Below, in pieces: positions 16,686-35,372 of a stretch of DNA of 43,365 nucleotides; position 1 is the stretch's first letter; each line of letters opens with the position of its first letter. The DNA comes from Actinomycetota bacterium (GTDB taxonomy: Bacteria > Actinomycetota > Acidimicrobiia > Acidimicrobiales > Palsa-688). A model generated the notes under the pieces. That model was not told the origin of the DNA and did no database searches. It worked only from the letters and a program-made list of their open reading frames with translations. The position numbers and the translations under genes were made by a program. Location of the stretch: the NCBI GenBank assembly GCA_023489205.1, contig JAMDDF010000047.1, forward strand, positions 1 through 43,365, written 5' to 3'.

Positions 16686-17237
16686 GTGCGCACCCGGGAA
16701 CACGTCCCCGCTCGTAAGCTCGCGAGCCTTGTCGGCAGCGCGAGCGCTTCGCTGGCGGCGTTGATCGCCCTGGCCGCCCCGGCGAGTGCCACGCTGCCCC
16801 AGCGGGGCACATCGAGCCACGCACGCACGACGGTCACGAAGATCGAGGTGAAGGCGACCAAGATCGGCAAGTACGCCAAGGTCCTGGTCAACCAAAAGGG
16901 GCTTGCCCTTTATTACAATACTGCCAACAAACCCCCTAAGCACTGGGCCTGCACCGCCAAATGCCTCACCGTGTGGCCGCCGCTGGTCCTCCCGAAGGGC
17001 CAAAAGGCAGCCATCGCCTTGGCCGGCGTGAGCGGGCTCGGCACCGTCAAAAGCCCCTCAGGTGTACAAGTAACCTGGCAGGGCAAGCCTCTGTACACCT
17101 TCAGCGCAGACAAGGCGGGACAGGCCAAGGGGGAAGACGTCCTTGGTGTCTGGTTCTTGGCCGGTACCGCTCCGGAAAAACCCCTCGCCAAGAAGACCAC
17201 TACCACTACTGCCAAGAGCAGCTACGGCGGCTACTAG
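16686..17237 (+). CDS. Secreted COG4315-type repeat protein (one repeat pair, YGGY C-terminus)
   Basis: Exported protein of 183 residues. The Sec signal has a basic start, a hydrophobic core (about 15-33) and an APASA cleavage region near 36. The mature part carries the secreted-repeat pattern (LYYNT, CTAKCLTVWPPL, VTWQGKPLYTF, GEDVLGVWFL) of Pfam family PF03640, function unknown. Two Cys may form a disulfide. The C-terminus is a Thr/Lys-rich linker ending SSYGGY, shared with the triple-repeat protein at 32044-33390. GTG start after GGGAGG. Confidence 0.8.
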   Translation: MRTREHVPARKLASLVGSASASLAALIALAAPASATLPQRGTSSHARTTVTKIEVKATKIGKYAKVLVNQKGLALYYNTANKPPKHWACTAKCLTVWPPLVLPKGQKAAIALAGVSGLGTVKSPSGVQVTWQGKPLYTFSADKAGQAKGEDVLGVWFLAGTAPEKPLAKKTTTTTAKSSYGGY

Positions 17238-18423: not shown

Positions 18424-18709
18424 CCCCACCCGAGGGCCCAAGCAATGTCCACGACCAACCAGAAGTGGGGCTATGGCCCAACGGCCCTAGGAACTTGGGA
18501 CTAAAGCAGCGGCGTTACCACCGACGCTGCTGCCAAGCTTGTCTCAAAAGGTTAGGTCACGCGAACCCTACAATTAGGTACGCCTGAGCTGGGCGTACGA
18601 TGGCTGAGAGCGAGCTTAACACTGGGGCATTTGTCGGTGAGGATCCTGCAAATGAGATGCTAGTAAGGTACTTTGGCCAGCTACTTTGGGTACCTACAAG
18701 GAGACAAAA
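18424..18709 (+). promoter_or_regulatory. Leader region of the sulfation cluster with promoter and hairpin
   Basis: These 286 bases hold no gene and are less GC-rich than their neighbours. TACAAT (18569-18574) is a near-consensus -10, but no good -35 sits 16-18 nt upstream. A perfect hairpin GTACGCC/GGCGTAC with 7-nt loop (18578-18598) would lie at or just after the transcription start, leaving a leader of about 130 nt. A CTGAGA motif is present, but the rest of a TPP riboswitch is not. Confidence 0.35.
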
Positions 18710-19408
18710 ATGGGGTTGAAATTAATTGGCGCTGGGCTACCTAGGACCGCCACCATGACACAAAAAGTTGCGCTCGAAATCCTCGGCTTTGGCCCATGTT
18801 ACCACATGGCCAACGTGTGGGGCGACTTGGGCACGGTCCCGCGCTGGCACGAAGCGTTCCTCGGCCGCAGGGACTGGGACGACATATTCGGCGAGTTCCA
18901 GGCCGCAGTGGACTGGCCTGCGTCCTTTTACTACAGAGAGCTCATGGAAGCCTACCCCGATGCCAAGGTCCTGCTGTCGGTGCGCAGCGGGGAGTCTTGG
19001 GAGCGCAGCATGGAAAACACGATCTGGGGCACCTTTTACGGGGACATGCTGGTACACGACCTTTCCACAGCTTGGGCGCGGGTGGACGAGCGCTGGGCCA
19101 ACTACATCACTTTAATGAAGGCCATGTGGGAAAAGATCGGCCTGCTGGCAGGGGAGTTCGAGGGGCCATGGGAGGGGACCATGGCGACGGCGATGGAGCG
19201 CTACAACGAAGAAGTGAAGGCCACCGTGCCAGCGGACCGCCTGCTCGTGTGGTCACCGCTGGAGGGTTGGGGCCCACTTTGCGAGTTCTTGGAAGTGCCC
19301 GTGCCGAAGGTCGCTTTACCACATATAAACGACACTAGAGGCTACGAGCTTGGGGTCATCGACCTAGCCTTGGCTGCGCTCGCTGAGTGGCGCAAGAAGC
19401 AGTCCTAG
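18710..19408 (+). CDS. PAPS-dependent sulfotransferase family protein
   Basis: Predicted cytosolic sulfotransferase of 232 residues, like the Sulfotransfer_4 group. The 5'-phosphosulfate-binding loop is IGAGLPRTATMTQKVAL (residues 6-22). The 3'-phosphate-binding segment is VLLSVRSGESWERSMENTIW, with R92 and S100 at the expected places. It would use PAPS and release PAP; the acceptor is unknown. Start: ATG 18710, chosen because AAGGAG (18698-18703) is 6 nt upstream; an in-frame ATG at 18686 lacks one. It is followed 35 nt later by the transporter-arylsulfotransferase fusion and then a PAP phosphatase, which supports a real sulfation role. Confidence 0.85.
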   Translation: MGLKLIGAGLPRTATMTQKVALEILGFGPCYHMANVWGDLGTVPRWHEAFLGRRDWDDIFGEFQAAVDWPASFYYRELMEAYPDAKVLLSVRSGESWERSMENTIWGTFYGDMLVHDLSTAWARVDERWANYITLMKAMWEKIGLLAGEFEGPWEGTMATAMERYNEEVKATVPADRLLVWSPLEGWGPLCEFLEVPVPKVALPHINDTRGYELGVIDLALAALAEWRKKQS

Positions 19409-19443
19409 GCCCGCACCAACACCCAAGGAGTGCTGAAGCGCTC

Positions 19444-22431
19444 ATGAAAGGCACCCTAGTTGACGCGGCGGGTGCCGGTGGCCCCGACAGCGCCTTGACG
19501 TCCACCCGAGCAGGGGCGAGCCGCCAGGGATGGCTCCTGGCTGTCACCTGCGTCGCGCAGTTCATGGTGATCTTGGACCTCTCGATCGTCAACGTAGCCC
19601 TGCCCTCGATCCAGTCAAGCCTCCATTTCTCTAGCGTCGAGCTCCAGTGGGTGGTAGACGCATACTCCATCGTCTTCGCTGGCTTCTTGATGCTCGCGGG
19701 GCGCGCCACTGACTTGTTCGGGCAGCGGCGCACGTTCGTGGCGGCCCTGGCGCTGTTCTCGCTCACCTCGCTCGTAGGCGGGCTTTCCATAAACGACCAG
19801 ATGCTCATGATCGCCCGTGGCTTGCAGGGCCTCTCGGGCGCCATGATGGCCGCTGCCTCGCTCGCGATCATAACTTCGTCCTTCCCCGAAGGTCCGGCCC
19901 GGCACCGGGCGATCGGGCTGTGGGGCGCCATGAACGGGGCGGGAGGTGCTGCGGGGACGCTGCTTGGCGGCATCATCACCCAAGAGCTCACTTGGCGCTG
20001 GGTCTTGCTCATCAACCCCCCGATCGGGGTGGCAGCCGCCCTGGTCGCATACAGGGTGGTCGCGAACCGGCGCAGAAAAAAGGATGAGGCGCACTTTGAC
20101 ATAGCCGGTGCCTTGACGCTCACCATCGGCCAGTTGGTCCTCGTGTACGGGATCGTGGACACAGGGGTAGACGGCTGGTCCTCGGCCAGATCGCTCGTGC
20201 CCATCGTGGCTGGTGTGCTATTGCTGGGCATCTTCGGCCTGGTAGAGAGGCACTTCGCGAGCTCGCCCCTGGTGCCCCTGCGCGAGCTGACCGGCCCGCT
20301 AAAAGTCGCCAACTTGATCGTGTTGCTCTTCAGTGCGTCGCTTTTCGCCATGTGGTACGTGAGCTCGCTCTACCTTCAGCAGGTCCTCGGGCTGTCCCCT
20401 TTGGACACAGGGCTCGCCTTTTTGCCGATGACCCTCATGATCATGCTCGGCGCGTCGCAGGCCGGAAAGCTGGTCGGCCTTTTTGGGGTCCGTGCCGTGC
20501 TCGCCGGCGGGCTGTTGTTGCTGTTCTCCGGCATGGTCCTGATGGCCCGGGTCGGCCCAAGCGGCAGCGCCCTCGGCTACGTGGTGCTGCCCGGCGTGCT
20601 CACCGCCGCTGGGATCGGCCTTTCAGTCGTGCCGTCGACGATCTTTGCCACCCAGGGGGCCGGGGCGGGACAGGCCGGCCTGGCGTCGGGCCTAGTAAAC
20701 ACCTCCCGCCAGGTGGGCGCTGGAGTGGGCCTGGCGCTCCTCGCCACCATGGCGACCCAGGCCACGAGCGCGGCGGTGGGCCACAACGTTGCAGTGCCCC
20801 AAGCGCTCACCGACGGCTTCGGGCTCGCCTACCTGGTCGGTGCTGGCTTCGTGGCGCTCGCCATCGTGGCGACACTAGCCCTTGCCCGCGAGCACGTGCC
20901 CATCCCCAAGAGGCACCGCCTGGGCGTCGGCATGAGCGCCCTGTCGGTGGTGGGTTGCTTCGCGGCTTTAGACTTCGCCCTAGCAGGCGGGCAGGGCCCC
21001 TCGATCGGTGCGTACAAGACTTCGGGCGCCTACAGCTTCGTCTCGGCGCCAGGCTTGCACCCTCCCAAAGTGAGGGCCCTCAGCCCGACACACAGTTCCG
21101 AACTGGCACCCGGCTACATCATGATGGCCAACTTCTATGACATAAGCGACCCGCCGATGACCGGCCAGAGTGGCCCGCTCATCATGGACAACCAGCTCCA
21201 ACCGGTGTGGTTCCAGCCTCTTCCAAAAGACGTTGTCGCTTCCAACCTGGAGGACCAGGTCTATAACGGCCGGCCGGTACTCACGTGGTGGCAAGGGACC
21301 GTGTCTAGTTCCGGCGAGACCGAGACGGGGGAGGACGTGGTCGTCAACCAGCACTACCAGACCGTCGCGACGCTCCGAGGCAGCGACGGCTGGGTCCTAA
21401 CGATGCACGAGATGCTGATCAGGGGGGACGACGCGTGGGTCACAGCCAACAAGACCATGCCCATGGACCTTTCCAGGTACGGAGGCCCCGTGGACGGCGT
21501 CCTCGACGATTCCGCCGTGCAAGAGTACGACATCTCTACGGGCAAACTGCTCTACAGCTGGGACGCTTTAGGCCACATCCCGCTCTCAAGCTCGCAAGCG
21601 ACGATGCCAGCCAACGGCTTCCCTTGGGACGCCTACCACGTCAACTCGATCAGCTTTGTAAACAAGGGGGAGTTCTTAGTCTCGATGCGCAACACTTGGG
21701 CTGCTTACCTGGTCAAACAAAAAACGGGCTCCATTGTGTGGGAACTCGGAGGGAAGCATTCCAGCTTCGCCATACCCAAAGCTGCCACGTTCCAGTGGCA
21801 GCACGACGTCAAGTGGCAAGGCAATTCGCTCGTGACCATGTACGACGACAACTGCTGCCAGTTGACCAGCGGCGGGACCTACGTAGCTCCCGACGGGCCG
21901 TCGCGCGGCCTCGAGCTGAAGCTCGACATGGGCGACCACAGCGTGTCTATGGTGGCCCAGTACGTCTATGCGAAGGGCTTCGACTCGGCCTACATGGGGG
22001 ACATGCAACTGCTTGCCAACGGCAACGTGTTCATCGGATGGGGCTCGCAGCCCAATTTCAGCGAGTACTCGAGGTCGGGCAAGCTCCTCTTGAACGCCTT
22101 GCTGCCCGGGAGCGACTTGAGCTACAGGGCCGAGATTGCCAACTGGGTAGGGCTACCCCTTAGCCCGCCTCAGGGCGCGGCCCGCTCGGGGCCAAGGGGG
22201 ACAACAATTTACGCCAGCTGGAACGGCGCCACCGAGGTTGCGTCGTGGAAAGTCCTAGCGGGCAACACGGCGTCTCACCTCGCCGAGGTAGCGAGCACTC
22301 AAAGAAGCGGCTTCGAGACCCAAATCGTGGTCAAAGGCAGCTTCACCAGCTTCAAGGTAGAGGCGCTCAGTTCCAGCGGCCAGGTAATCGGGAGGTCGAA
22401 GAGCTTCAGCCCGGCGCGCTCTGGGAATTGA
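19444..22431 (+). CDS. Fusion of 14-TM MFS exporter (DHA2/EmrB type) and arylsulfotransferase domain
   Basis: Single uninterrupted frame of 995 residues. Residues about 30-490 form a DHA2-type exporter with 14 hydrophobic helices, the TM1 motif LDLSIVNVALP, motif A-like LAGRATDLFGQRR and a Gly-rich TM5. A basic loop (about 482-492, PIPKRHR) is followed by a fifteenth hydrophobic helix (493-516). Residues about 557-995 form an ASST beta-propeller of the Arylsulfotran_2 type. Candidate catalytic residues are H655, H732, R749 and H787. Their spacing (77, 17, 38) is identical to the Tat-exported paralogue at 23217-24809. With both ends of a 14-TM transporter in the cytosol, the extra helix would place the ASST domain outside. 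An in-frame ATG at 19387 lies inside the preceding gene; AAGGAG sits 13 nt before 19444. Confidence 0.9.
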   Translation: MKGTLVDAAGAGGPDSALTSTRAGASRQGWLLAVTCVAQFMVILDLSIVNVALPSIQSSLHFSSVELQWVVDAYSIVFAGFLMLAGRATDLFGQRRTFVAALALFSLTSLVGGLSINDQMLMIARGLQGLSGAMMAAASLAIITSSFPEGPARHRAIGLWGAMNGAGGAAGTLLGGIITQELTWRWVLLINPPIGVAAALVAYRVVANRRRKKDEAHFDIAGALTLTIGQLVLVYGIVDTGVDGWSSARSLVPIVAGVLLLGIFGLVERHFASSPLVPLRELTGPLKVANLIVLLFSASLFAMWYVSSLYLQQVLGLSPLDTGLAFLPMTLMIMLGASQAGKLVGLFGVRAVLAGGLLLLFSGMVLMARVGPSGSALGYVVLPGVLTAAGIGLSVVPSTIFATQGAGAGQAGLASGLVNTSRQVGAGVGLALLATMATQATSAAVGHNVAVPQALTDGFGLAYLVGAGFVALAIVATLALAREHVPIPKRHRLGVGMSALSVVGCFAALDFALAGGQGPSIGAYKTSGAYSFVSAPGLHPPKVRALSPTHSSELAPGYIMMANFYDISDPPMTGQSGPLIMDNQLQPVWFQPLPKDVVASNLEDQVYNGRPVLTWWQGTVSSSGETETGEDVVVNQHYQTVATLRGSDGWVLTMHEMLIRGDDAWVTANKTMPMDLSRYGGPVDGVLDDSAVQEYDISTGKLLYSWDALGHIPLSSSQATMPANGFPWDAYHVNSISFVNKGEFLVSMRNTWAAYLVKQKTGSIVWELGGKHSSFAIPKAATFQWQHDVKWQGNSLVTMYDDNCCQLTSGGTYVAPDGPSRGLELKLDMGDHSVSMVAQYVYAKGFDSAYMGDMQLLANGNVFIGWGSQPNFSEYSRSGKLLLNALLPGSDLSYRAEIANWVGLPLSPPQGAARSGPRGTTIYASWNGATEVASWKVLAGNTASHLAEVASTQRSGFETQIVVKGSFTSFKVEALSSSGQVIGRSKSFSPARSGN

Positions 22432-22450
22432 AACTTAGGAGGAACAGCCA

Positions 22451-23215
22451 GTGCCAGACAAGGACCAACCCCGCGGGCCCGACGATGCAGCCGCGGCCTG
22501 CATGGCTAGGGACGCGGGCAAATTGCTGCTGGAGCTGCGCAAGGGGATCGGTACGCTGCTCACGGCACAACAGGCTCGTCATGAAGGCGACAGGCGCTCA
22601 CACGAGTTCTTGGCTGCAGCCATCGCCGAGCGCTACCCCGACGACGGGTTCCTTTCCGAAGAAGGGGCCGATACCACGGAGCGTCTCAGCCGCGACCGTG
22701 TCTGGATCGTCGACCCCCTGGACGGGACCAGGGAGTTCGGGGAACCGCCGCGTACGGACTGGGCGGTGCACGTGTGCCTAGCGCACCACGGTACTGCGGT
22801 AGTGGGAGCTGTTGGGCTGCCCGCGAGGGACATGGTGCTGTCGACGGCCGAGCCGCCAGGGGTGAGGCCCCGGCAGCCGGGGCCTTTGCGCATTGCGATC
22901 AGCCGCACCCGGCCTCCGGCTTTTGTCGAACAGCTGGCGGCAAGGCTCTCCGGGGAGCTGGTGCCCATGGGCTCCGCCGGCGCCAAGGCAATGGCGGTCA
23001 TGCTCGGCGAAGTGGACATTTACATCCACGCCGGAGGCCAGTACGAGTGGGACTCAGCGGCACCCGTGGCCGTGGCACGCCACGCCGGCCTACACGTCTC
23101 GCGCATAGACGGGTCGGCCCTGGTGTACAACCAGCCCAACCCGTGGCTCCCCGACTTGTTGGTCTGCCGGCCCGAAAACGCAGGGCAAGTACTTGAGGCG
23201 CTAGAAAGCACTTGA
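22451..23215 (+). CDS. cysQ: CysQ-type 3'(2'),5'-bisphosphate nucleotidase (PAP phosphatase)
   Basis: Mg2+-dependent phosphatase of the inositol-monophosphatase superfamily, 254 residues. Metal-binding motifs are complete: E70-E71, D88-P-L-D91-G-T93 and W200-D201-S-A-A-P. In actinobacteria CysQ hydrolyses 3'-phosphoadenosine 5'-phosphate, the product of PAPS sulfotransferases. Its place 19 nt after the fusion gene, with a sulfotransferase upstream, makes PAP recycling the likely role. An inositol- or fructose-phosphate phosphatase remains possible. GTG start with AGGAGG 8 nt upstream. Its stop is 1 nt from the stop of the convergent ASST gene. Confidence 0.87.
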   Translation: MPDKDQPRGPDDAAAACMARDAGKLLLELRKGIGTLLTAQQARHEGDRRSHEFLAAAIAERYPDDGFLSEEGADTTERLSRDRVWIVDPLDGTREFGEPPRTDWAVHVCLAHHGTAVVGAVGLPARDMVLSTAEPPGVRPRQPGPLRIAISRTRPPAFVEQLAARLSGELVPMGSAGAKAMAVMLGEVDIYIHAGGQYEWDSAAPVAVARHAGLHVSRIDGSALVYNQPNPWLPDLLVCRPENAGQVLEALEST

Positions 23216-25010: not shown

Positions 25011-25991
25011 GTGACTTGGTCACCGTCGCCGAGCGCTAAAGGCGCGTCGGCACAGGCAGGTCGCGCTATGGTCGTCGTACAGGCAGCCGGGACGCCACCG
25101 CCACCCCGAGGTCTGCCAGCGCTCTTAGCGGCACTTAGGCCCAAACAATGGCCAAAGAACGTGCTCGTGTTCGCCGCGCCCGTCGCGTCGGGCGCAGTCT
25201 TGCACCCCTGGGTGCTAGCCAGCACGTTCGCGGCTTTCTGGGTGCTGGTGGGCGCTTCAGGCGCTACCTATTTGCTAAACGACGTCCACGACGCTAAGGC
25301 CGACCGCCTCCACCCTGTCAAGCGCGACCGCCCAGTGGCATCGGGCCGGTTGGGCACCAAGGCGGCCCTGTTGACCGCCGCTGGGCTGGCGACAGCCTCG
25401 CTTTTGGCGGCGGGCTTCCTATCAGTCGGCCTTGGCGTGGTCGTTGCTTGCTACCTGGGGGTCAGCGCGGGCTACACGCTGGTGCTCAAACGCCTTGCGG
25501 TGATCGAGCTGGCGAGCGTCGCCTCCGGCTTCACCCTCCGGGCCGTGGCCGGAGCCGCCGCCGCGCACGTCGGCGTGTCCCCCTGGTTCTTGGTCATGGT
25601 TTCTTTTGGGGCTCTCTTGGTGGTTGCCGGCAAACGGAGGTCAGAGCAGATGGCCCTCGGCAGCGCCAAGGCTGTCCACCGCCAAAGCTTGGGCGCCTAC
25701 CCACCAGAGTTCCTCCGCAGCGTGAGGTTGTTGGCCATGTCGGTGACCCTCACGACTTACTGCCTTTGGGCCTTCCAGCGCGCGACCGACCTGGCCCTCG
25801 GGCGGAGCACCAAACACCTTGTCTGGTTCGAGCTCTCGATCATACCTTTCGTCTTGGCCCTCCTTTTGGTAGAGCTGGCCGTGGCACGCGGCCGCAGCGG
25901 CGAACCCGAGGAGCTGGCCCTCAAGGACCACGTGCTCCAAGCGTGCGGGCTAGCCTGGGTGGCATTGGTGGTTATAGGTATTTACGCTTGA
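25011..25991 (+). CDS. ubiA: Decaprenyl-phosphate phosphoribosyltransferase (UbiA superfamily)
   Basis: Integral membrane prenyl-type transferase, 326 residues with about eight hydrophobic segments. It resembles M. tuberculosis Rv3806c, which joins PRPP to decaprenyl phosphate as the first step of the DPA pathway. The Asp-rich motif N90-D91-x2-D94-x3-D98 followed by HPVKRDRPVASG is intact. The start is GTG 25011 with a weak GAGG; an ATG at 25068 is also possible and would lose only an unconserved tail. The stop overlaps the dprE1 TTG (TTGA), so translation is coupled. The assignment is strengthened by dprE1 and dprE2 directly downstream. Confidence 0.9.
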   Translation: MTWSPSPSAKGASAQAGRAMVVVQAAGTPPPPRGLPALLAALRPKQWPKNVLVFAAPVASGAVLHPWVLASTFAAFWVLVGASGATYLLNDVHDAKADRLHPVKRDRPVASGRLGTKAALLTAAGLATASLLAAGFLSVGLGVVVACYLGVSAGYTLVLKRLAVIELASVASGFTLRAVAGAAAAHVGVSPWFLVMVSFGALLVVAGKRRSEQMALGSAKAVHRQSLGAYPPEFLRSVRLLAMSVTLTTYCLWAFQRATDLALGRSTKHLVWFELSIIPFVLALLLVELAVARGRSGEPEELALKDHVLQACGLAWVALVVIGIYA

Positions 25992-27394
25992 GCACAGGCC
26001 AGTTGCACCTCCTCAGCGGATGGGGGCGAGCCACCTGGAGCGCAGCCCACGTCGCGGCGCCAACCACCCAAGCAGAGCTCGACACCCTAGTCCTGGAAGG
26101 ACTGGGGCCCTTCGGGCGCTTCATACCTCGAGGCCTCGGGAGGGCTTACGGTGACGCCGCCCAGTGTGCCGGTGGGCTGGTCCTCGACTGCCGCGGCCTG
26201 CGCTCGGTCCTTGAGCTGGACCAAGAGCGTGGCGAGGTCCGCGCGAGCGCGGGGATATCTTTTGACGAGCTACTCGCGTTCGTCGTACCCCGGGGCTATT
26301 TCCTCCCGGTCACGCCGGGTACGCGCTTTGTCACCGTAGGCGGTGCTATCGCGAGCGATGTGCATGGTAAGAACCACCATGTCGACGGCTCTCTCGGCTC
26401 TCACGTGCAATGCTTGCGCTTGGTTGCCCCAACGGGCGTGGTCGAATGCGGCCCGCACGACCACAGGGAACACTTCGACGCGACATGTGGCGGCATGGGC
26501 TTGACGGGGGTCATCACCCAAGCCACGCTCCGCTTAGTCAAGGTCGAAAGCTCCTCGATGGTGGTCGACACAGAACGCGCAGCAGACTTGGACGCCTGCC
26601 TGTCGCTTTTGTCCACCGACTCGGCCAAGTACCGCTACTCGGTCGCCTGGGTGGACTCTCTTGCCCGGGGCAGGCGGCTCGGGCGTAGCGTGCTCACGAG
26701 GGCAAACCACGCACGCGCAGCTGAGCTGCCCAAGCGCTGGCAAGACAAGCCGCTCTCCTACCGTGCCCCGCACCCTCTAAATCTCCCCTTAGCGGCCCCC
26801 TTCCCCCTGCTCAACCCGGCTACGGTGAGCGCGTTTAACGAGATGTGGTACCGCAAAGCACCAAAGCACCGACAAACGCGACTGGAGCCGTTCGCGACTT
26901 TTTTTTACCCCCTAGACGGTATCGGCAATTGGAACCTCCTTTATGGGAACAGGGGCTTTACCCAGTACCAGTTCGTCGTGCCCTTTGGGGCGGAGAAAGC
27001 CCTAGAAATGGCCCTAGAGAAGCTGAGCGGTGGGCGGGTAGGATCTTTCTTAGCAGTGCTCAAGTCCTTTGGGCCAGCGGGGGAGGGCCTATTGTCGTTC
27101 CCCACCGAAGGCTGGACGCTAGCCTTAGACATACCTCTTGGCACAGCCGGCCTGGCACAGTTGCTAGACGAGCTCGACACGCTCGTCGTGGGAGCAGGAG
27201 GACGGGTCTATTTGTCCAAAGACGCCCGCGTGCGACGCGAGCTGATCGGGGCGATGTACCCCCGCTTAGGCCAATGGCAGGCGTTGCAGGCCCAACTCGA
27301 CCCAGATGGTGTGCTCGTTTCAGACCTCTCCCTCCGCCTCGGCCTGACCCGCCGGCCAGGCCCGAGGGCGCCACAGGCGATAGACGCCAAATAA
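25988..27394 (+). CDS. dprE1: Decaprenylphosphoryl-beta-D-ribose 2-oxidase (DprE1)
   Basis: FAD-dependent oxidase, 468 residues, that with DprE2 epimerises polyprenyl-phosphoryl ribose to arabinose. The start is TTG 25988, overlapping the ubiA stop; it gives the expected N-terminus LSGWGRATWS. The FAD-binding region holds the motif VHGKNHH (H126), and active-site K411 lies in YLSKDAR, equivalent to K418 of M. tuberculosis. The residue aligned with C387, the covalent benzothiazinone target, is A379 (GWTLALD against GWNICVD), and N385 is T377. That predicts natural resistance to nitro-benzothiazinones. No other substrate-site oddity was noticed. Confidence 0.93.
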   Translation: MSTGQLHLLSGWGRATWSAAHVAAPTTQAELDTLVLEGLGPFGRFIPRGLGRAYGDAAQCAGGLVLDCRGLRSVLELDQERGEVRASAGISFDELLAFVVPRGYFLPVTPGTRFVTVGGAIASDVHGKNHHVDGSLGSHVQCLRLVAPTGVVECGPHDHREHFDATCGGMGLTGVITQATLRLVKVESSSMVVDTERAADLDACLSLLSTDSAKYRYSVAWVDSLARGRRLGRSVLTRANHARAAELPKRWQDKPLSYRAPHPLNLPLAAPFPLLNPATVSAFNEMWYRKAPKHRQTRLEPFATFFYPLDGIGNWNLLYGNRGFTQYQFVVPFGAEKALEMALEKLSGGRVGSFLAVLKSFGPAGEGLLSFPTEGWTLALDIPLGTAGLAQLLDELDTLVVGAGGRVYLSKDARVRRELIGAMYPRLGQWQALQAQLDPDGVLVSDLSLRLGLTRRPGPRAPQAIDAK

Positions 27395-27404
27395 TGGGCA
27401 TGCC

Positions 27405-28166
27405 GTGATAGACGGGACCGGGATGCCCGAGACGGCCGTGGTAATCGGTGGCAGCTCGGACATAGCAGTGGCCGTGCTCAGGCTCCTCGCACTTCGCCGG
27501 CTCCGCCATGTAGTCCTGGCCGGTCGGTCTGAAGCCGCTCTGTACCAGGTGGGCGAAGAGCTCCGTGGCCTAGGTGTCCACTCCGTAGACTGCCGGCACC
27601 TCGACATCACAGCGACTGCAACGTTGGCACCATTTGCAGCCGAAGCGGCCGGCATCCTCGGCCAGGTTGACCTTGTCTTGGTGGCCGCAGGCCAACTCGG
27701 CTCATCAGCACTAGAGGATCTCGGCGCACAAGGTGTTTGGTCCCTCTTGGCAACCAATTTTGCCGGCCCAGCGGCGCTAACCGCAGAGTTTGCCAACTAC
27801 ATGGCCCATCAGGGCTACGGACGGATAGTAGTGCTCAGTTCCGTTGCCGGTGTGCGCACCCGTAAAGCCAACTTCGTCTATGGTTCGGCAAAAGCAGGCC
27901 TGGACGGCTTTGCGACGGGTCTTTGCCACGCGCTCGCTGGCAGTGCTGTAAGGGTCAACGTCGTGCGGCCCGGCTTCGTGTCCACAAAGATGACAGCGGG
28001 CATGAAGCCAGCGATCTTCTCCGTCGACGCCGCCACGGTCGCCAAGGCCATCGTCCGCGGTCTCGAGACCGGCCAGGAAGTTACCTGGGTGCCTCCTAAA
28101 CTCCGTTACCTCTTCGCTGTCCTCCGTCTTGTGCCACGACCGCTCTGGCGGCGCTTGGGAGGATGA
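27405..28166 (+). CDS. dprE2: Decaprenylphosphoryl-2-keto-ribose reductase (DprE2)
   Basis: NADH-dependent short-chain dehydrogenase, 253 residues, completing formation of the polyprenyl-phosphoryl arabinose donor. The cofactor-binding motif is VVIGGSSDIA near the N-terminus. The catalytic Ser lies in VLSSVAG and the Tyr/Lys pair in FVYGSAKAGLDGF. The C-terminal block LRYLFAVLRLVPRPLWRRL closely follows mycobacterial DprE2. GTG start at 27405, 10 nt after dprE1. No arabinosyltransferase (Emb/Aft) gene is in the window, so the user of this donor is not seen. Confidence 0.92.
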   Translation: MIDGTGMPETAVVIGGSSDIAVAVLRLLALRRLRHVVLAGRSEAALYQVGEELRGLGVHSVDCRHLDITATATLAPFAAEAAGILGQVDLVLVAAGQLGSSALEDLGAQGVWSLLATNFAGPAALTAEFANYMAHQGYGRIVVLSSVAGVRTRKANFVYGSAKAGLDGFATGLCHALAGSAVRVNVVRPGFVSTKMTAGMKPAIFSVDAATVAKAIVRGLETGQEVTWVPPKLRYLFAVLRLVPRPLWRRLGG

Positions 28167-31932: not shown

Positions 31933-32043
31933 CGGCTAGGCCACCGGCCTCCGGCCCGCACCCTACCGCTCGAATCCGTTCCGCCGGGCCCCACGTAGCT
32001 AGACCCAGTAAGCGCTTCAACGTAACTGGGAGGAATGTCGACT

Positions 32044-33390
32044 ATGCGTGCCTACGGCCACACGTGCTCAACAGCGAAAACCCCGTTTCGGCGGGCCTTG
32101 GCGCAGGCCGGCACAGCCCTTTGTGCCACCGCCCTGGCCGCCTCGGCCTTGGTGGGCTTCGGCGCCTTCGCGCCGCCGGCCTCGGCCGCCAGCCCTACGA
32201 TCTCGAGCCACATGACCCCACAAGGCAGGGTCCTCGTCGGGCCCACGGGGCTGTCGGTGTACATGTTCAGCGGCGACTTGTCTACCTCGACGGCGTGCAC
32301 TTCGGCCCTCTGTTTAAAGATATGGCCCCCCGTGTTATCGACAAGTGGTGCCATCAGTGCCGGGCCCGGCGTCAACGCAGCCAAATTGGCTGTCTACAAG
32401 AGGCCCGGGGTCGGTGACCAGGTCACCTACTACGGCCACCCGCTGTACTACTTCTTGAAAGACACCGCCCCAGGGCAGTCCAACGGCGAGGACGTCGCTT
32501 CCTTCGGCGGCGTCTGGCAGTTGGTGTCGGTCGCAGGCCATCCCGCTGCCAACAAGGCCCAGTTGCAAGTGGAGCCGACGCCCCAAGGCTTGGCCCTCGG
32601 TGCAGTAAGTGCCTTTGGTGCACTGAAGACCGTCTACACCTTGTCCGCAGCGACGGCCAGCTCCACCACCTGCACAGGGGCGTGCGAGGCTTTTTGGCCG
32701 CCGCTCATAAGCAACGGCCCAGCTGAGGCCGGCCCAGGGGTCAACAAGTCCCTGCTTGGCTTGGTCCGCCTCCCCGACGGCACCGCGCAGGTAACCTACA
32801 GCGGACACCGTCTCTACCTCTTCACCAAGGACCTCGCCACAGGTGCAGCGTCGTCAGAGACCAACGGCGAGCTCGTGATGGCACAGCCCTTCGACGGCGT
32901 GTGGTACACGGTCTCCCCGAGCGGCTTCGACCTCGCAGGCGCGGCCCACCTGAAGGCCGAGACCTCGTCCGCCGGCGCCATCGTGGCCATGGTCGGGGCC
33001 GGTGGGGCCTCGGCGACGGCGTACACCTTCACCGGGAGCAACTGCAGCGCTCAGTGCGCCGTTGCCTGGCCTCCTGTGCTCACCACCGAACCGCCCGTCG
33101 CCGGGCCGGGCATCTCTGCAGCGGCTCTCGGGACCAAGCGCCTAGCCAACGGGAGCTTCCAGGTGACCTACCACGGCCACCCCCTGTACCTGTTTTTCAA
33201 AGGCCTGAACAGCTCCACCTCCGGTGCTGGCATCAAAGCCTTCGGGGGTACCTTCCAACTGGTGACCTCCAAAGGTGCTAGCGTGCCACCGGCCTCCAAG
33301 CCCAGCGCGCCGACGACCCCGGCCCCCAAGCCGACGCCAACGACCGCCTCCAGCACCACCAGCACCACTTCGGCCTACGGCGGCTACTGA
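32044..33390 (+). CDS. Secreted triple-repeat COG4315-type protein with YGGY C-terminus
   Basis: Exported protein of about 448 residues. The signal peptide has a hydrophobic core (about 20-45) and likely cleavage after ASA. Three copies of the secreted-repeat pair follow (about 55-165, 180-300, 310-405). Each has a C-x(3-4)-C pair before a WPP motif, then QVTY-x-GHxLY and a Phe/Trp-rich strand. The C-terminal Pro/Thr/Ser-rich tail ends TSAYGGY. The start at 32044 is preferred because GGGAGG (32028-32033) is 10 nt upstream; the ATG at 32035 abuts it. It converges on an FMN-binding/flavocytochrome pair, suggesting extracytoplasmic redox, though no metal or heme motif is visible. Confidence 0.82.
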   Translation: MRAYGHTCSTAKTPFRRALAQAGTALCATALAASALVGFGAFAPPASAASPTISSHMTPQGRVLVGPTGLSVYMFSGDLSTSTACTSALCLKIWPPVLSTSGAISAGPGVNAAKLAVYKRPGVGDQVTYYGHPLYYFLKDTAPGQSNGEDVASFGGVWQLVSVAGHPAANKAQLQVEPTPQGLALGAVSAFGALKTVYTLSAATASSTTCTGACEAFWPPLISNGPAEAGPGVNKSLLGLVRLPDGTAQVTYSGHRLYLFTKDLATGAASSETNGELVMAQPFDGVWYTVSPSGFDLAGAAHLKAETSSAGAIVAMVGAGGASATAYTFTGSNCSAQCAVAWPPVLTTEPPVAGPGISAAALGTKRLANGSFQVTYHGHPLYLFFKGLNSSTSGAGIKAFGGTFQLVTSKGASVPPASKPSAPTTPAPKPTPTTASSTTSTTSAYGGY

Positions 33391-33465: not shown

Positions 33466-33990
33466 GATGTTCAGCTTCTTTAGTGCCGACTGCACGGAGA
33501 GGAGGTAGGCCTCGGTAGTGTAGGTGGCCCCAGAAATGAAGTTGACCTGCACGCCCTGGGCCTTCAGCACTTCCTGGCGCAGCATAGGGATGACCTCGCG
33601 GGCGATCATCTGCGAGTAGGACTCGGCTGTCTGCAGGTTGGCCACCCTCACGTCTGTGATATGGCCACCCTCTGCCGTGACCTTGACCGAGAGGACGCCA
33701 TAGCCGTACTGCTCGCTCGCCCCAACGGCCGAAGCCGCCGGGCCGGTCGACGCCGGCACCGTCGTAGTGACGCTACTCGGCGCAGGCGGCCCTATCGCGC
33801 CAGCGCCAGAGCGGCTTGGCGACGTCGTCGTAGCCGAGGAGGCCGGCGGCGAAGTGCTGCCAGGCGAAGCCTCGGGCGCGCTGAGGACCAACCTGTGCGG
33901 GGACGGACCGGCGATATGGGCGCCAAGCACTGCGCCAAAACCGGTTACCGCAGACCCAATGGTAGCAACGGTCCTTTTTACATTGCTCAT
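33463..33990 (-). CDS. FMN-binding domain protein (exported, covalent flavin acceptor)
   Basis: Protein of 175 residues. An N-terminal hydrophobic segment (about 10-30) acts as anchor or signal, followed by a Ser/Thr/Pro-rich linker (about 35-90). The C-terminal FMN_bind domain (PF04205) has the flavinylation motif S153-G-A-T-Y-T158; FMN would be linked to T158 by ApbE, whose gene is not in the window. Its start overlaps the stop of the flavocytochrome gene (ATGA), so the two are coupled and probably form an electron-transfer pair outside the membrane. Confidence 0.87.
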   Translation of the reverse strand: MSNVKRTVATIGSAVTGFGAVLGAHIAGPSPHRLVLSAPEASPGSTSPPASSATTTSPSRSGAGAIGPPAPSSVTTTVPASTGPAASAVGASEQYGYGVLSVKVTAEGGHITDVRVANLQTAESYSQMIAREVIPMLRQEVLKAQGVQVNFISGATYTTEAYLLSVQSALKKLNI

Positions 33991-35372
33991 GTCAGCTCGT
34001 ACGCCTCGAAATGAATTGATTCTTCTGGTACTCCTAGGCGCGAAACCACATCAACCACTGCGCCGACAAACCCCTTTGGCCCGGCAACATACACATCACG
34101 CTTTTTGAGGTCTGGCACCACTTCGTAAAGACGTTCGATCTTTACGACCGAGCGCGGCCCGACCCACTCATAGACGCGGCCCTTGCGACTGGTAGTTAGC
34201 TTCAAAATTTCGTCGGAGAGCACGAGGTCCTCCCGGCGAGAGGCTCGCATGATCACCACCGGCTCAGCGTCTTGGGGCACGTCTTCTAGCAGCGACCGGA
34301 TCGCAGTCACGCCGACCCCTCCAGAGATGAGGAGGACCTTCCGCCGGCGTCGGCGCTGCAGGGTGAAGACACCGTAGGGGCCCTCGATCACGACCGGCGT
34401 ACCTGGCTTCAGCCGCGCTAGCCGAGAAGAGTAGTCCCCGAGCGCTTTTACCGTCAGGCGAAGCTGGGAGGCGCTGGTACGGCCCGACAGGGTAAATGGG
34501 TGGGCTTGCCACCACATCCCCCGGGTAAGGAACCGCCACTCGAAGAACTGCCCGCCCCTGGCCCCAAGGCGGTCAAGGTTTTTCCCAACCAAGATGACCG
34601 AAACCACCCCAGGGCCCTCGGGTTTCACCTCTAAGACCCGTAGGCGGTGGCGCAGGCTGCGCACAAGGGGCAGGCCAAAGCGGTACGCGATGACGAGCCC
34701 GGCCGTAGCCACCCAGAAAAGCACCCAAAAAAGCCGCGTGAGGGGGTGATGGACAAAAGAGGGGCCAAGGGCAATTATGTGTGCGAAAGAAAGTGCCAAG
34801 GCTAGGTACATGAAAAGGTGGAAGGCCCACCAACGCTCCCGGCGTACCCTGCTGCGGATAACACGGGCGGACGTGGCTGCGACTGCCATCATTATGCCAA
34901 AGCCGATCGTGGCCGAGACCATGTAGGGGAAGGTCGACACCAAGACTCCAACCTCATGCCAAAGACCCGTCTTTGCCGCCTGTGCGTACGCGACTACAAG
35001 GAGGACAACGTGAGCAGCAATTAGCGAAATGGGCCAAGGCGCCAACCGACGGTGCCAACGCAAAAGGCCGTCAAACCCGAGCACTGTTTCGACAATTGGT
35101 ACACGAGACACGAGCAGCACCATTATGAGCGCCAAGTAAGTGCCGGCGAGGCCTGCCACCCCACCAAGGAACATGGCGATGCCTCCAGGCGCGCTGAGCT
35201 CCGACATCGTCTCAGTGGTTAGTGCCGTTGCCATAACAGCGCCGAAGCCGAGCCCTAGCACCACCAACGAGACGGTCGGTGCCCAAGTTGCCCCAGGGCG
35301 CGAGGTAAGAGCCGGGGGCCGGGCCCTGTTAGGGGCGCGTACCGGCCGAGTCCGGGGCTGGGCGACAACCAT
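33987..35372 (-). CDS. Ferric-reductase-like transmembrane flavocytochrome
   Basis: Predicted membrane oxidoreductase of 461 residues. About six transmembrane helices (about 32-240) carry two His pairs, H107/H121 and H185/H198, spaced as in bis-heme ferric reductases and NADPH oxidases. The C-terminal part has a flavin-binding segment (QAHPFTLSG, near 292-300) and an NAD(P)-binding fold (VLLISGGVGVTAIRSLL). Electrons would go from cytosolic NAD(P)H via FAD and two hemes to an outer acceptor, probably the coupled FMN-binding protein. Whether the final acceptor is Fe(III) is not shown by sequence. ATG at 35372. It is divergent from the two-component system by 166 bp. Confidence 0.88.
   Translation of the reverse strand: MVVAQPRTRPVRAPNRARPPALTSRPGATWAPTVSLVVLGLGFGAVMATALTTETMSELSAPGGIAMFLGGVAGLAGTYLALIMVLLVSRVPIVETVLGFDGLLRWHRRLAPWPISLIAAHVVLLVVAYAQAAKTGLWHEVGVLVSTFPYMVSATIGFGIMMAVAATSARVIRSRVRRERWWAFHLFMYLALALSFAHIIALGPSFVHHPLTRLFWVLFWVATAGLVIAYRFGLPLVRSLRHRLRVLEVKPEGPGVVSVILVGKNLDRLGARGGQFFEWRFLTRGMWWQAHPFTLSGRTSASQLRLTVKALGDYSSRLARLKPGTPVVIEGPYGVFTLQRRRRRKVLLISGGVGVTAIRSLLEDVPQDAEPVVIMRASRREDLVLSDEILKLTTSRKGRVYEWVGPRSVVKIERLYEVVPDLKKRDVYVAGPKGFVGAVVDVVSRLGVPEESIHFEAYELT

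Follow-up and report, generated by a model that had tools for sequence, protein, structure and literature searches.

An exporter fused to an arylsulfate sulfotransferase in a soil actinobacterium and its possible part in a transmembrane sulfate relay

Introduction

Caprazamycin sulfation reportedly requires a type III polyketide synthase (PKS), going by the title of a 2013 paper by Tang et al. According to the accessible part of PMC4257720, triketide pyrones are sulfated by Cpz8, which depends on 3'-phosphoadenosine 5'-phosphosulfate (PAPS), and the phenolic sulfate esters so formed are then donors for the PAPS-independent arylsulfate sulfotransferase (ASST) Cpz4; much the same logic appears in the available text of PMC6731281. 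Here we analyze a stretch of 43,365 nucleotides (contig JAMDDF010000047.1, hereafter the window) from a soil actinobacterium, in which a major facilitator superfamily (MFS) exporter and a sulfate-passing enzyme of the ASST type are encoded as a single protein. We regard it as somewhat probable that the MFS part exports an aryl-sulfate donor that the ASST part spends on the outer side, so that the fusion would form the envelope half of a two-step relay like that of caprazamycin.

Three other described systems resemble the fusion in part. The ASST of E. coli CFT073 (EcAST) is a free periplasmic enzyme whose gene lies in an operon with DsbL/DsbI; His252, His356, Asn358, Arg374 and Thr501 surround its sulfated His436, and natural acceptors are not identified for most PAPS-independent aryl sulfotransferases (accessible portions of PMC13426309). 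The fusion, in contrast, would be membrane-linked. Chains of the mycobacterial DHA2 efflux pump EfpA (8ufd, 8x6x, 9bii) match residues 3-487 of the fusion at most, and EfpA lacks the fifteenth helix and ASST domain that follow. The adipostatin cluster brings together a type III PKS (AdpPKS), a PAPS-dependent sulfotransferase (AdpST) and an adenylylsulfate kinase, a combination of gene types also present in two of the loci described below (L008 and L018); the cluster has a single sulfotransferase and no ASST, and 'transporter' and 'MFS' have 0 mentions in the accessible text of PMC12135136. The fusion differs from Cpz4 itself in that its ASST is joined to an MFS exporter with an added helix.

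Results

One frame joins an exporter, a fifteenth helix and an ASST domain

The features of the fusion are as follows.

19425..19430, plus strand: candidate ribosome-binding site AAGGAG, 13 bases 5' of the ATG at 19444
19444..22431, plus strand: MFS-ASST fusion, 995 residues
19507..20883, plus strand: MFS (DHA2-type) exporter part, residues 22-480, 14 helices
20908..20982, plus strand: fifteenth hydrophobic helix, residues 489-513, with a basic loop (480-491) before it, from model and hydropathy
21025..22416, plus strand: ASST domain, residues 528-991
21406..21408, plus strand: H655, candidate active-site residue, by order EcAST His252; invariant in aligned relatives
21637..21639, plus strand: H732 of an H-V-N motif, by order EcAST His356/Asn358; H732 and N734 invariant
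21688..21690, plus strand: R749, by order EcAST Arg374; invariant in aligned relatives
21802..21804, plus strand: H787, putative nucleophile that takes the sulfate (EcAST His436 by order); its aligned counterpart in Cpz4 chain 9kf4 is the histidine of QHD

Positions 19444-22431 of the plus strand are open for 995 codons plus a stop; an alternative GTG start at 19387, upstream of the ATG, would give 1014 residues. The exporter half matches MFS_1 (PF07690) over residues 36-429 with 165 bits (Pfam cut-off 33.4). An AlphaFold2 model built on 120 sequences (pLDDT 87.7, pTM 0.84), which supersedes a first model from 35 sequences (pLDDT 70.5, pTM 0.53), places helices across residues 22-480, a further helix at 489-513 and then an all-beta domain. 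Fourteen helices are counted in 22-480 if 64-92 and 185-205 are each taken as one broken helix, and by this model the MFS half belongs to the 14-helix DHA2 fold. Because the fusion scores 204 bits against TIGR00711 (EmrB-type DHA2, NCBIfam), under the cut-off of 230.2, the MFS half is DHA2-type by predicted fold and falls outside the filing of that model. Among solved MFS structures, its nearest relatives are efflux pumps for drugs or lipids. An earlier note on this DNA had proposed a continuous 995-residue frame, a complete 14-helix DHA2 exporter, and a basic loop followed by a fifteenth helix at 493-516; each of these holds, the helix boundaries to within a few residues.

Family-mean hydropathy peaks in the fifteenth helix at 2.40 (residue 504), compared with 2.39 for helix 1. 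Export signals are present on all 60 of the complete stand-alone ASSTs in the loci described below (57 recognized by script, 3 by eye). L026 (4638-6254, minus strand) encodes an ASST that belongs to the fused clade but stands alone, and its Sec-type signal peptide is located at the position equivalent to helix 15. Since the model contains 15 helices, the paralogues carry export signals and the L026 signal peptide lies where helix 15 does, the ASST domain of the fusion is very probably outside the cell, as the earlier note had predicted. Two further matches to the ASST half that lack an MFS half were seen in another genome (G034:C64:32178-33650 and 33693-35249).

Helix 15 could alternatively be an internal signal peptide. 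Signal peptidase, cutting behind it, would then divide the precursor into an exporter and a freely secreted ASST, and the fusion would serve equal expression of the two rather than their coupling. A loose scan found an A-x-A motif behind helix 15 in 27 of 35 sequences, and the L026 signal peptide at the same place looks cleavable. Against such processing, the motif is missing in 8 of the 35, and the pTM of 0.84 for the joined protein would be fortuitous, even if pTM alone is no proof of docking. We consider processing quite unlikely.

The ASST domain carries a candidate active site

The ASST half matches Arylsulfotran_2 (PF14269) at residues 605-884 (144.6 bits, Pfam cut-off 27) and, at residues 691-873, Arylsulfotrans (PF05935; 36.3 bits, cut-off 24.2), the family of EcAST. 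The closest solved structure is Cpz4 (9kf4, 9kf6), whose fold the modeled domain shares. The H/H/R/H residues of the fusion align with an identical H/H/R/H set in the Cpz4 chain, and H655, H732, N734, R749, H787, C804 and C805 are all invariant in an alignment of the best 120 of 2044 relatives. The putative catalytic His/His/Asn/Arg/His set is therefore complete in the sequence, with H655, H732, N734, R749 and H787 corresponding to EcAST His252, His356, Asn358, Arg374 and His436; this pairing is by order only, not from an alignment to EcAST, and order and H-x-N motif are common to both sets. EcAST gave no sequence match at E 10 and is not among the structure matches listed, a list that one domain can fill. 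The spacing of H655, H732, R749 and H787 (77/17/38) equals that of H197, H274, R291 and H329 in the Tat-exported paralogue encoded nearby, just as the earlier note had it. The predicted activity of the ASST half is sulfate transfer from an aryl sulfate. The neighboring cysteines C804-C805 (window 21853-21858) may form a vicinal disulfide or a metal site.

The fusion is conserved and its two domains each form one clade in trees

A database search with the fusion gave 2044 proteins at E ≤ 0.001 among 7997 candidates scored. Both PF07690 and PF14269 are present in 120/120 of the relatives listed (the best 120 of the 2044, query included), which bears out the domain architecture put forward earlier. 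The others on this list are 62-84% identical to the fusion, some lie on contigs of >3 Mb, and those named by their source are called MFS or EmrB/QacA transporters. A separate, non-exhaustive scan with two peptide patterns and one genome per species returned 58 loci, 55 of the fusion family and 3 delta-proteobacterial ones with the MFS only. Both halves occupy one uninterrupted frame in 43 of the 55, a count that includes L036 (where residues 161-369 are unmatched) and L048 (MFS half recognized via Pfam). Contig ends cut nine loci (L009, L010, L033, L039, L045, L047, L049, L051, L052), and three (L050, L054, L055) have an unfused MFS.

The genome records behind these loci are mostly metagenome-assembled, which raises the question of whether misassembly or annotation merged two genes. 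Fusion in every listed relative, from several sources and in part on contigs of >3 Mb, together with the 43 loci in one frame, makes the probability of such an artefact close to negligible, and conservation likewise rules out a chance open reading frame (ORF). Two separate genes in place of one are ruled out by the absence of a stop between the halves in the 43 loci, and L050, L054 and L055 do not speak for a split frame because they branch outside the fused clade.

A quick tree sets the ASST domains of the fused type, 50 rows with L026 among them, apart from 62 paralogues as a single clade (SH-aLRT 100). The fused MFS domains likewise form one clade (98/99) of 46 rows plus L033 and L049, both cut by contig ends, and the nearest unfused MFS proteins, those of L050, L054 and L055, branch just outside it. 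Both domains of L048 fall in the fused clades, ruling out an independent fusion with a different MFS. In L050, L054 and L055 the unfused MFS stands beside two or three separate ASST genes, and in L055 also with a Sulfotransfer_4 gene and a type III PKS; this arrangement looks like, and probably is, the state before fusion. At least one extra ASST is found in 32 of the 42 loci of at least 10 kb and in 38 of all 56. In surveys centered on two fusion carriers, complete fusions turned up in 5 of 199 genomes in the class of G007 and in 3 of 247 in the class of G001 (threshold 1e-200, which cut copies would escape); we read these classes as Thermoleophilia and Acidimicrobiia, respectively.

A sulfotransferase gene precedes the fusion

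The genes next to the fusion are listed here.

18707..19408, plus strand: Sulfotransfer_4 (PF17784), PAPS-dependent type, 200.7 bits, E 3.4e-59; the ORF may open at TTG 18686
22451..23215, plus strand: inositol-phosphatase-superfamily protein, CysQ-like, PF00459 114.5 bits
23217..24809, minus strand: stand-alone ASST paralogue, 530 residues, PF14269 181.3 bits, exported by twin-arginine translocation (Tat) judging from its motif (SRRQLM) and hydrophobic stretch

The sulfotransferase, fusion and CysQ-like genes share one orientation and are separated by 35 and 19 bases, and the convergent Tat ASST gene follows. The sulfotransferase gene is likely the first of an operon with the fusion. The closest solved chain to its product is 9kf1, a 'Sulfotransferase family protein' (E 1.5e-38), which may be Cpz8, its code neighboring those of Cpz4 (9kf4, 9kf6). 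The CysQ-like gene, which starts 19 bases past the fusion stop and is preceded by AGGAGG at 22437-22442, has TIGR01331 (CysQ) as its best NCBIfam match (101.4 bits, under the cut-off of 228.8) and plausibly encodes a phosphatase for 3'-phosphoadenosine 5'-phosphate (PAP). The Tat ASST matches Cpz4 chain 9kf4 at E 3.5e-93.

We designate 20 loci as Group A (L001-L007, L009-L012, L027, L033, L034, L036, L040, L043, L044, L048 and the window) and counted sulfotransferases by searching the DNA of the loci directly. In 19 of these 20, window included, a Sulfotransfer_4 gene lies directly upstream of the fusion on the same strand; the exception is L036, whose available 662 bases hold none. Seven of the 19 (L007, L010, L011, L027, L034, L040, L044) have a start codon in the fusion frame that overlaps the sulfotransferase stop by 4 bases, suggesting translational coupling. 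Two copies of the sulfotransferase-fusion operon occur in G001 (L001, L005) and G002 (L002, L012), and, by accession prefix, also in the genome of L003 and L010. The CysQ-like gene is present in L003, L006, L027 and the window, an adenylylsulfate kinase gene in L008, L018 and L024, and a sulfatase gene in L019, L028, L032, L037, L041 and L050, with a weak match in L039.

The same architecture and outside location would also serve a protein whose MFS half exports the acceptor, for example a phenolic metabolite, for the outer ASST to sulfate on exit so that it does not re-enter, with aryl sulfates coming from elsewhere. Drug or lipid efflux pumps as closest solved relatives would suit this, but it gives no reason for a Sulfotransfer_4 gene directly upstream in nearly all of Group A, nor for the separate ASST genes beside the unfused MFS in L050, L054 and L055. 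We think it rather unlikely. Export of a sulfate donor is preferred because the closest solved structure to the ASST is Cpz4, whose fold it is predicted to share, because a PAPS-type sulfotransferase adjoins the fusion, and because type III PKS genes stand beside sulfotransferases in part of the family's range, in Solirubrobacterales. The earlier note's export-coupled modification thus stands as far as the exporter-ASST fusion and its intact candidate site are concerned; its picture of a cargo sulfated on exit gives way, on the evidence of the neighborhood, to a donor relay.

Elsewhere in the window, 25011-28166 holds a UbiA-family gene, DprE1 (NF053785, 509.9 bits, cut-off 500) and a DprE2-like dehydrogenase, in an order kept in L001. 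Secreted Lipoprotein_15 repeat (PF03640) proteins flank the region (16686-17237 and 32035-33390), and TauE/SafE-family permeases lie near the cluster in L001 (12985-14073, by Pfam) and L006 (7467-8582, grouped by BLAST). No antibiotic cluster was recognized among the part of the window genes scanned.

The sulfotransferase and a type III PKS across genomes

Among the 36 loci outside Group A, mainly of Solirubrobacterales and many of them short, Sulfotransfer_4 occurs only in L008, L018, L042, L045 and L055, and a type III PKS in four of these (not L045). The whole-genome search covered 43 genomes with family loci, comprising 15 of Group A, 25 others with a fusion or cut copy, and 3 with the unfused MFS only (G040, G042, G043). 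Sulfotransfer_4 is found in 40 of the 43 (15/15, 22/25 and 3/3) and in none of 14 control genomes. Fifteen of the 43 (0/15, 14/25 and 1/3) hold a type III PKS above cut-off, a sub-threshold fragment in L074 (24.9 bits) being excluded. Ten of these 15 PKS genes adjoin a Sulfotransfer_4 gene and the other five form a single ORF with such a domain.

The sulfotransferase-PKS fusion ORFs are L008:8895-10583 and others in L060, L064, L070 and L072; PF17784 and type III PKS domains occur together in 103 of 120 listed relatives of the L008 ORF. Both fusions, sulfotransferase-PKS and exporter-ASST, are present in five genomes (G007, G010, G019, G020, G041), four of which have a further sulfotransferase beside the PKS. 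In a sulfotransferase tree of 44 rows, one clade (99/98) unites the 19 operon sulfotransferases of Group A with L045, with the Solirubrobacterales genes next to a PKS (12 genes in 13 rows, as L066 = L096) and with L097, from a genome without the fusion. The PKS-fused domains form another clade with PKS-adjacent genes of G154, G166 and G237 (97/98), which rules out that they are the operon sulfotransferase. Two genomes without the fusion have Sulfotransfer_4 near a DHA2-type MFS and no ASST (L093, 42% identity; L092, 39%, about 2.5-3 kb off).

Within the class of G007, strong Sulfotransfer_4 matches (E < 1e-19) occur in 5/5 fusion genomes versus 9/194 others (p 8e-7), and a Sulfotransfer_4-linked type III PKS in 5/5 versus 3/194 (p 2e-8). 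Seven more genomes of this class hold a PKS-family gene over cut-off (about 26-28% identical, one marginal), none with Sulfotransfer_4 within 1.5 kb either side. In the class of G001, Sulfotransfer_4 occurs in 3/3 fusion genomes versus 28/244 others (p 0.002), and all 5 fusion copies adjoin it, with 122-184 bases between the matches.

These pairings also bear on whether the protein scavenges or detoxifies, its ASST stripping external aryl sulfates and its MFS handling the released phenols, with no relay from inside. Sulfatase genes in six of the loci would fit such a role, and the available text of PMC13426309 describes aryl sulfotransferases that accept several phenyl sulfates as donors, with at least one of these enzymes also hydrolyzing them. 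Since scavenging leaves both the operon with a PAPS-dependent-type enzyme and the type III PKS pairing unexplained, we judge it very unlikely.

Discussion

In the proposed relay, the upstream Sulfotransfer_4 enzyme would move sulfate from PAPS onto a small phenolic carrier in the cytosol. A type III PKS probably makes this carrier in Solirubrobacterales, and the by-product PAP may be cleared by the CysQ-like enzyme. The DHA2-type MFS half would then export the anionic aryl sulfate by proton exchange. Outside, the ASST half, tethered at the outer face by helix 15, would accept the sulfate on a histidine, by analogy H787, before handing it to a hydroxyl acceptor out of reach of cytosolic PAPS, for example an envelope glycan or an exported metabolite; nearby Tat-, lipoprotein- or Sec-exported ASSTs could share the same donor. 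Covalent attachment of the exporter to the second enzyme would account for the passage of a donor from the cytosol, where it is made, to an enzyme on the outer side. The DprE1, DprE2-like and UbiA-type genes of the window and L001 are a hint of an envelope arabinan acceptor, perhaps with decaprenyl-phospho-arabinose synthesis as the acceptor pathway in this lineage. The stronger proposal, a dedicated transmembrane relay in which a phenolic shuttle is loaded inside and the fused exporter-enzyme sulfates the outer envelope, is put forward tentatively.

Several observations weigh against the relay. DHA2 relatives carry drugs and lipids, and for this MFS half the cargo is something we infer. No acceptor candidate recurs in the loci. 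Sulfotransfer_4 was not found in 3 of the 43 genomes, whose completeness is not stated, and in most genomes outside Group A the PKS pair is located away from the fusion locus. The fusion is missing from G154, G166 and G237, which nevertheless hold a PKS-sulfotransferase pair. Kinship is not taken into account in the co-occurrence tests, the completeness of the surveyed genomes is not stated, and the association in the class of G001 is weak. The largest gap is that type III PKS is absent from the window and from all 15 Group A genomes searched, so that the carrier there must have another origin; for the same reason the window can be said to work like caprazamycin two-step sulfation without being a member of it.

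Set beside caprazamycin biosynthesis, the pairing of a putative PAPS-dependent sulfotransferase with an ASST recurs, by family and position, in 19 of 20 Group A loci, and of the set of Cpz4, Cpz8 and type III PKS the last is present in only part of the fusion family's range. The arrangement looks like the caprazamycin two-step toolkit split across the membrane, with exporter and second enzyme fused. To call this a new kind of modification, as the earlier note did, is too strong, the chemical logic being already known from Cpz8 and Cpz4. What is new is the membrane-spanning exporter-enzyme fusion and the membrane-split arrangement; the parts and the logic are known. As the earlier note supposed, we found no description of an MFS-ASST fusion in the literature searched, which mostly excluded subscription papers and is no proof of absence. 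Within the accessible text of that literature, 'arylsulfotransferase' and 'MFS transporter' were mentioned together only for a fungus, and nothing on such a fusion was seen in the available portion of the survey PMC8692599.

In the fusion family the ASST has a physical tie to an exporter and a genetic tie to a PAPS-dependent-type sulfotransferase, and with this double link three or four genes are enough to test directly where an outside enzyme obtains its activated sulfate. The fused domain also allows a guess at the exporter's substrate, which is rare, and the fusion may offer a natural scaffold for sulfation from inorganic sulfate. If the relay is real, an energy-charged sulfate donor would be available to these bacteria on the outer side of the membrane, where no PAPS is produced, and some Solirubrobacterales would have fused both of its ends, the sulfotransferase to the PKS inside and the exporter to the ASST in the membrane.

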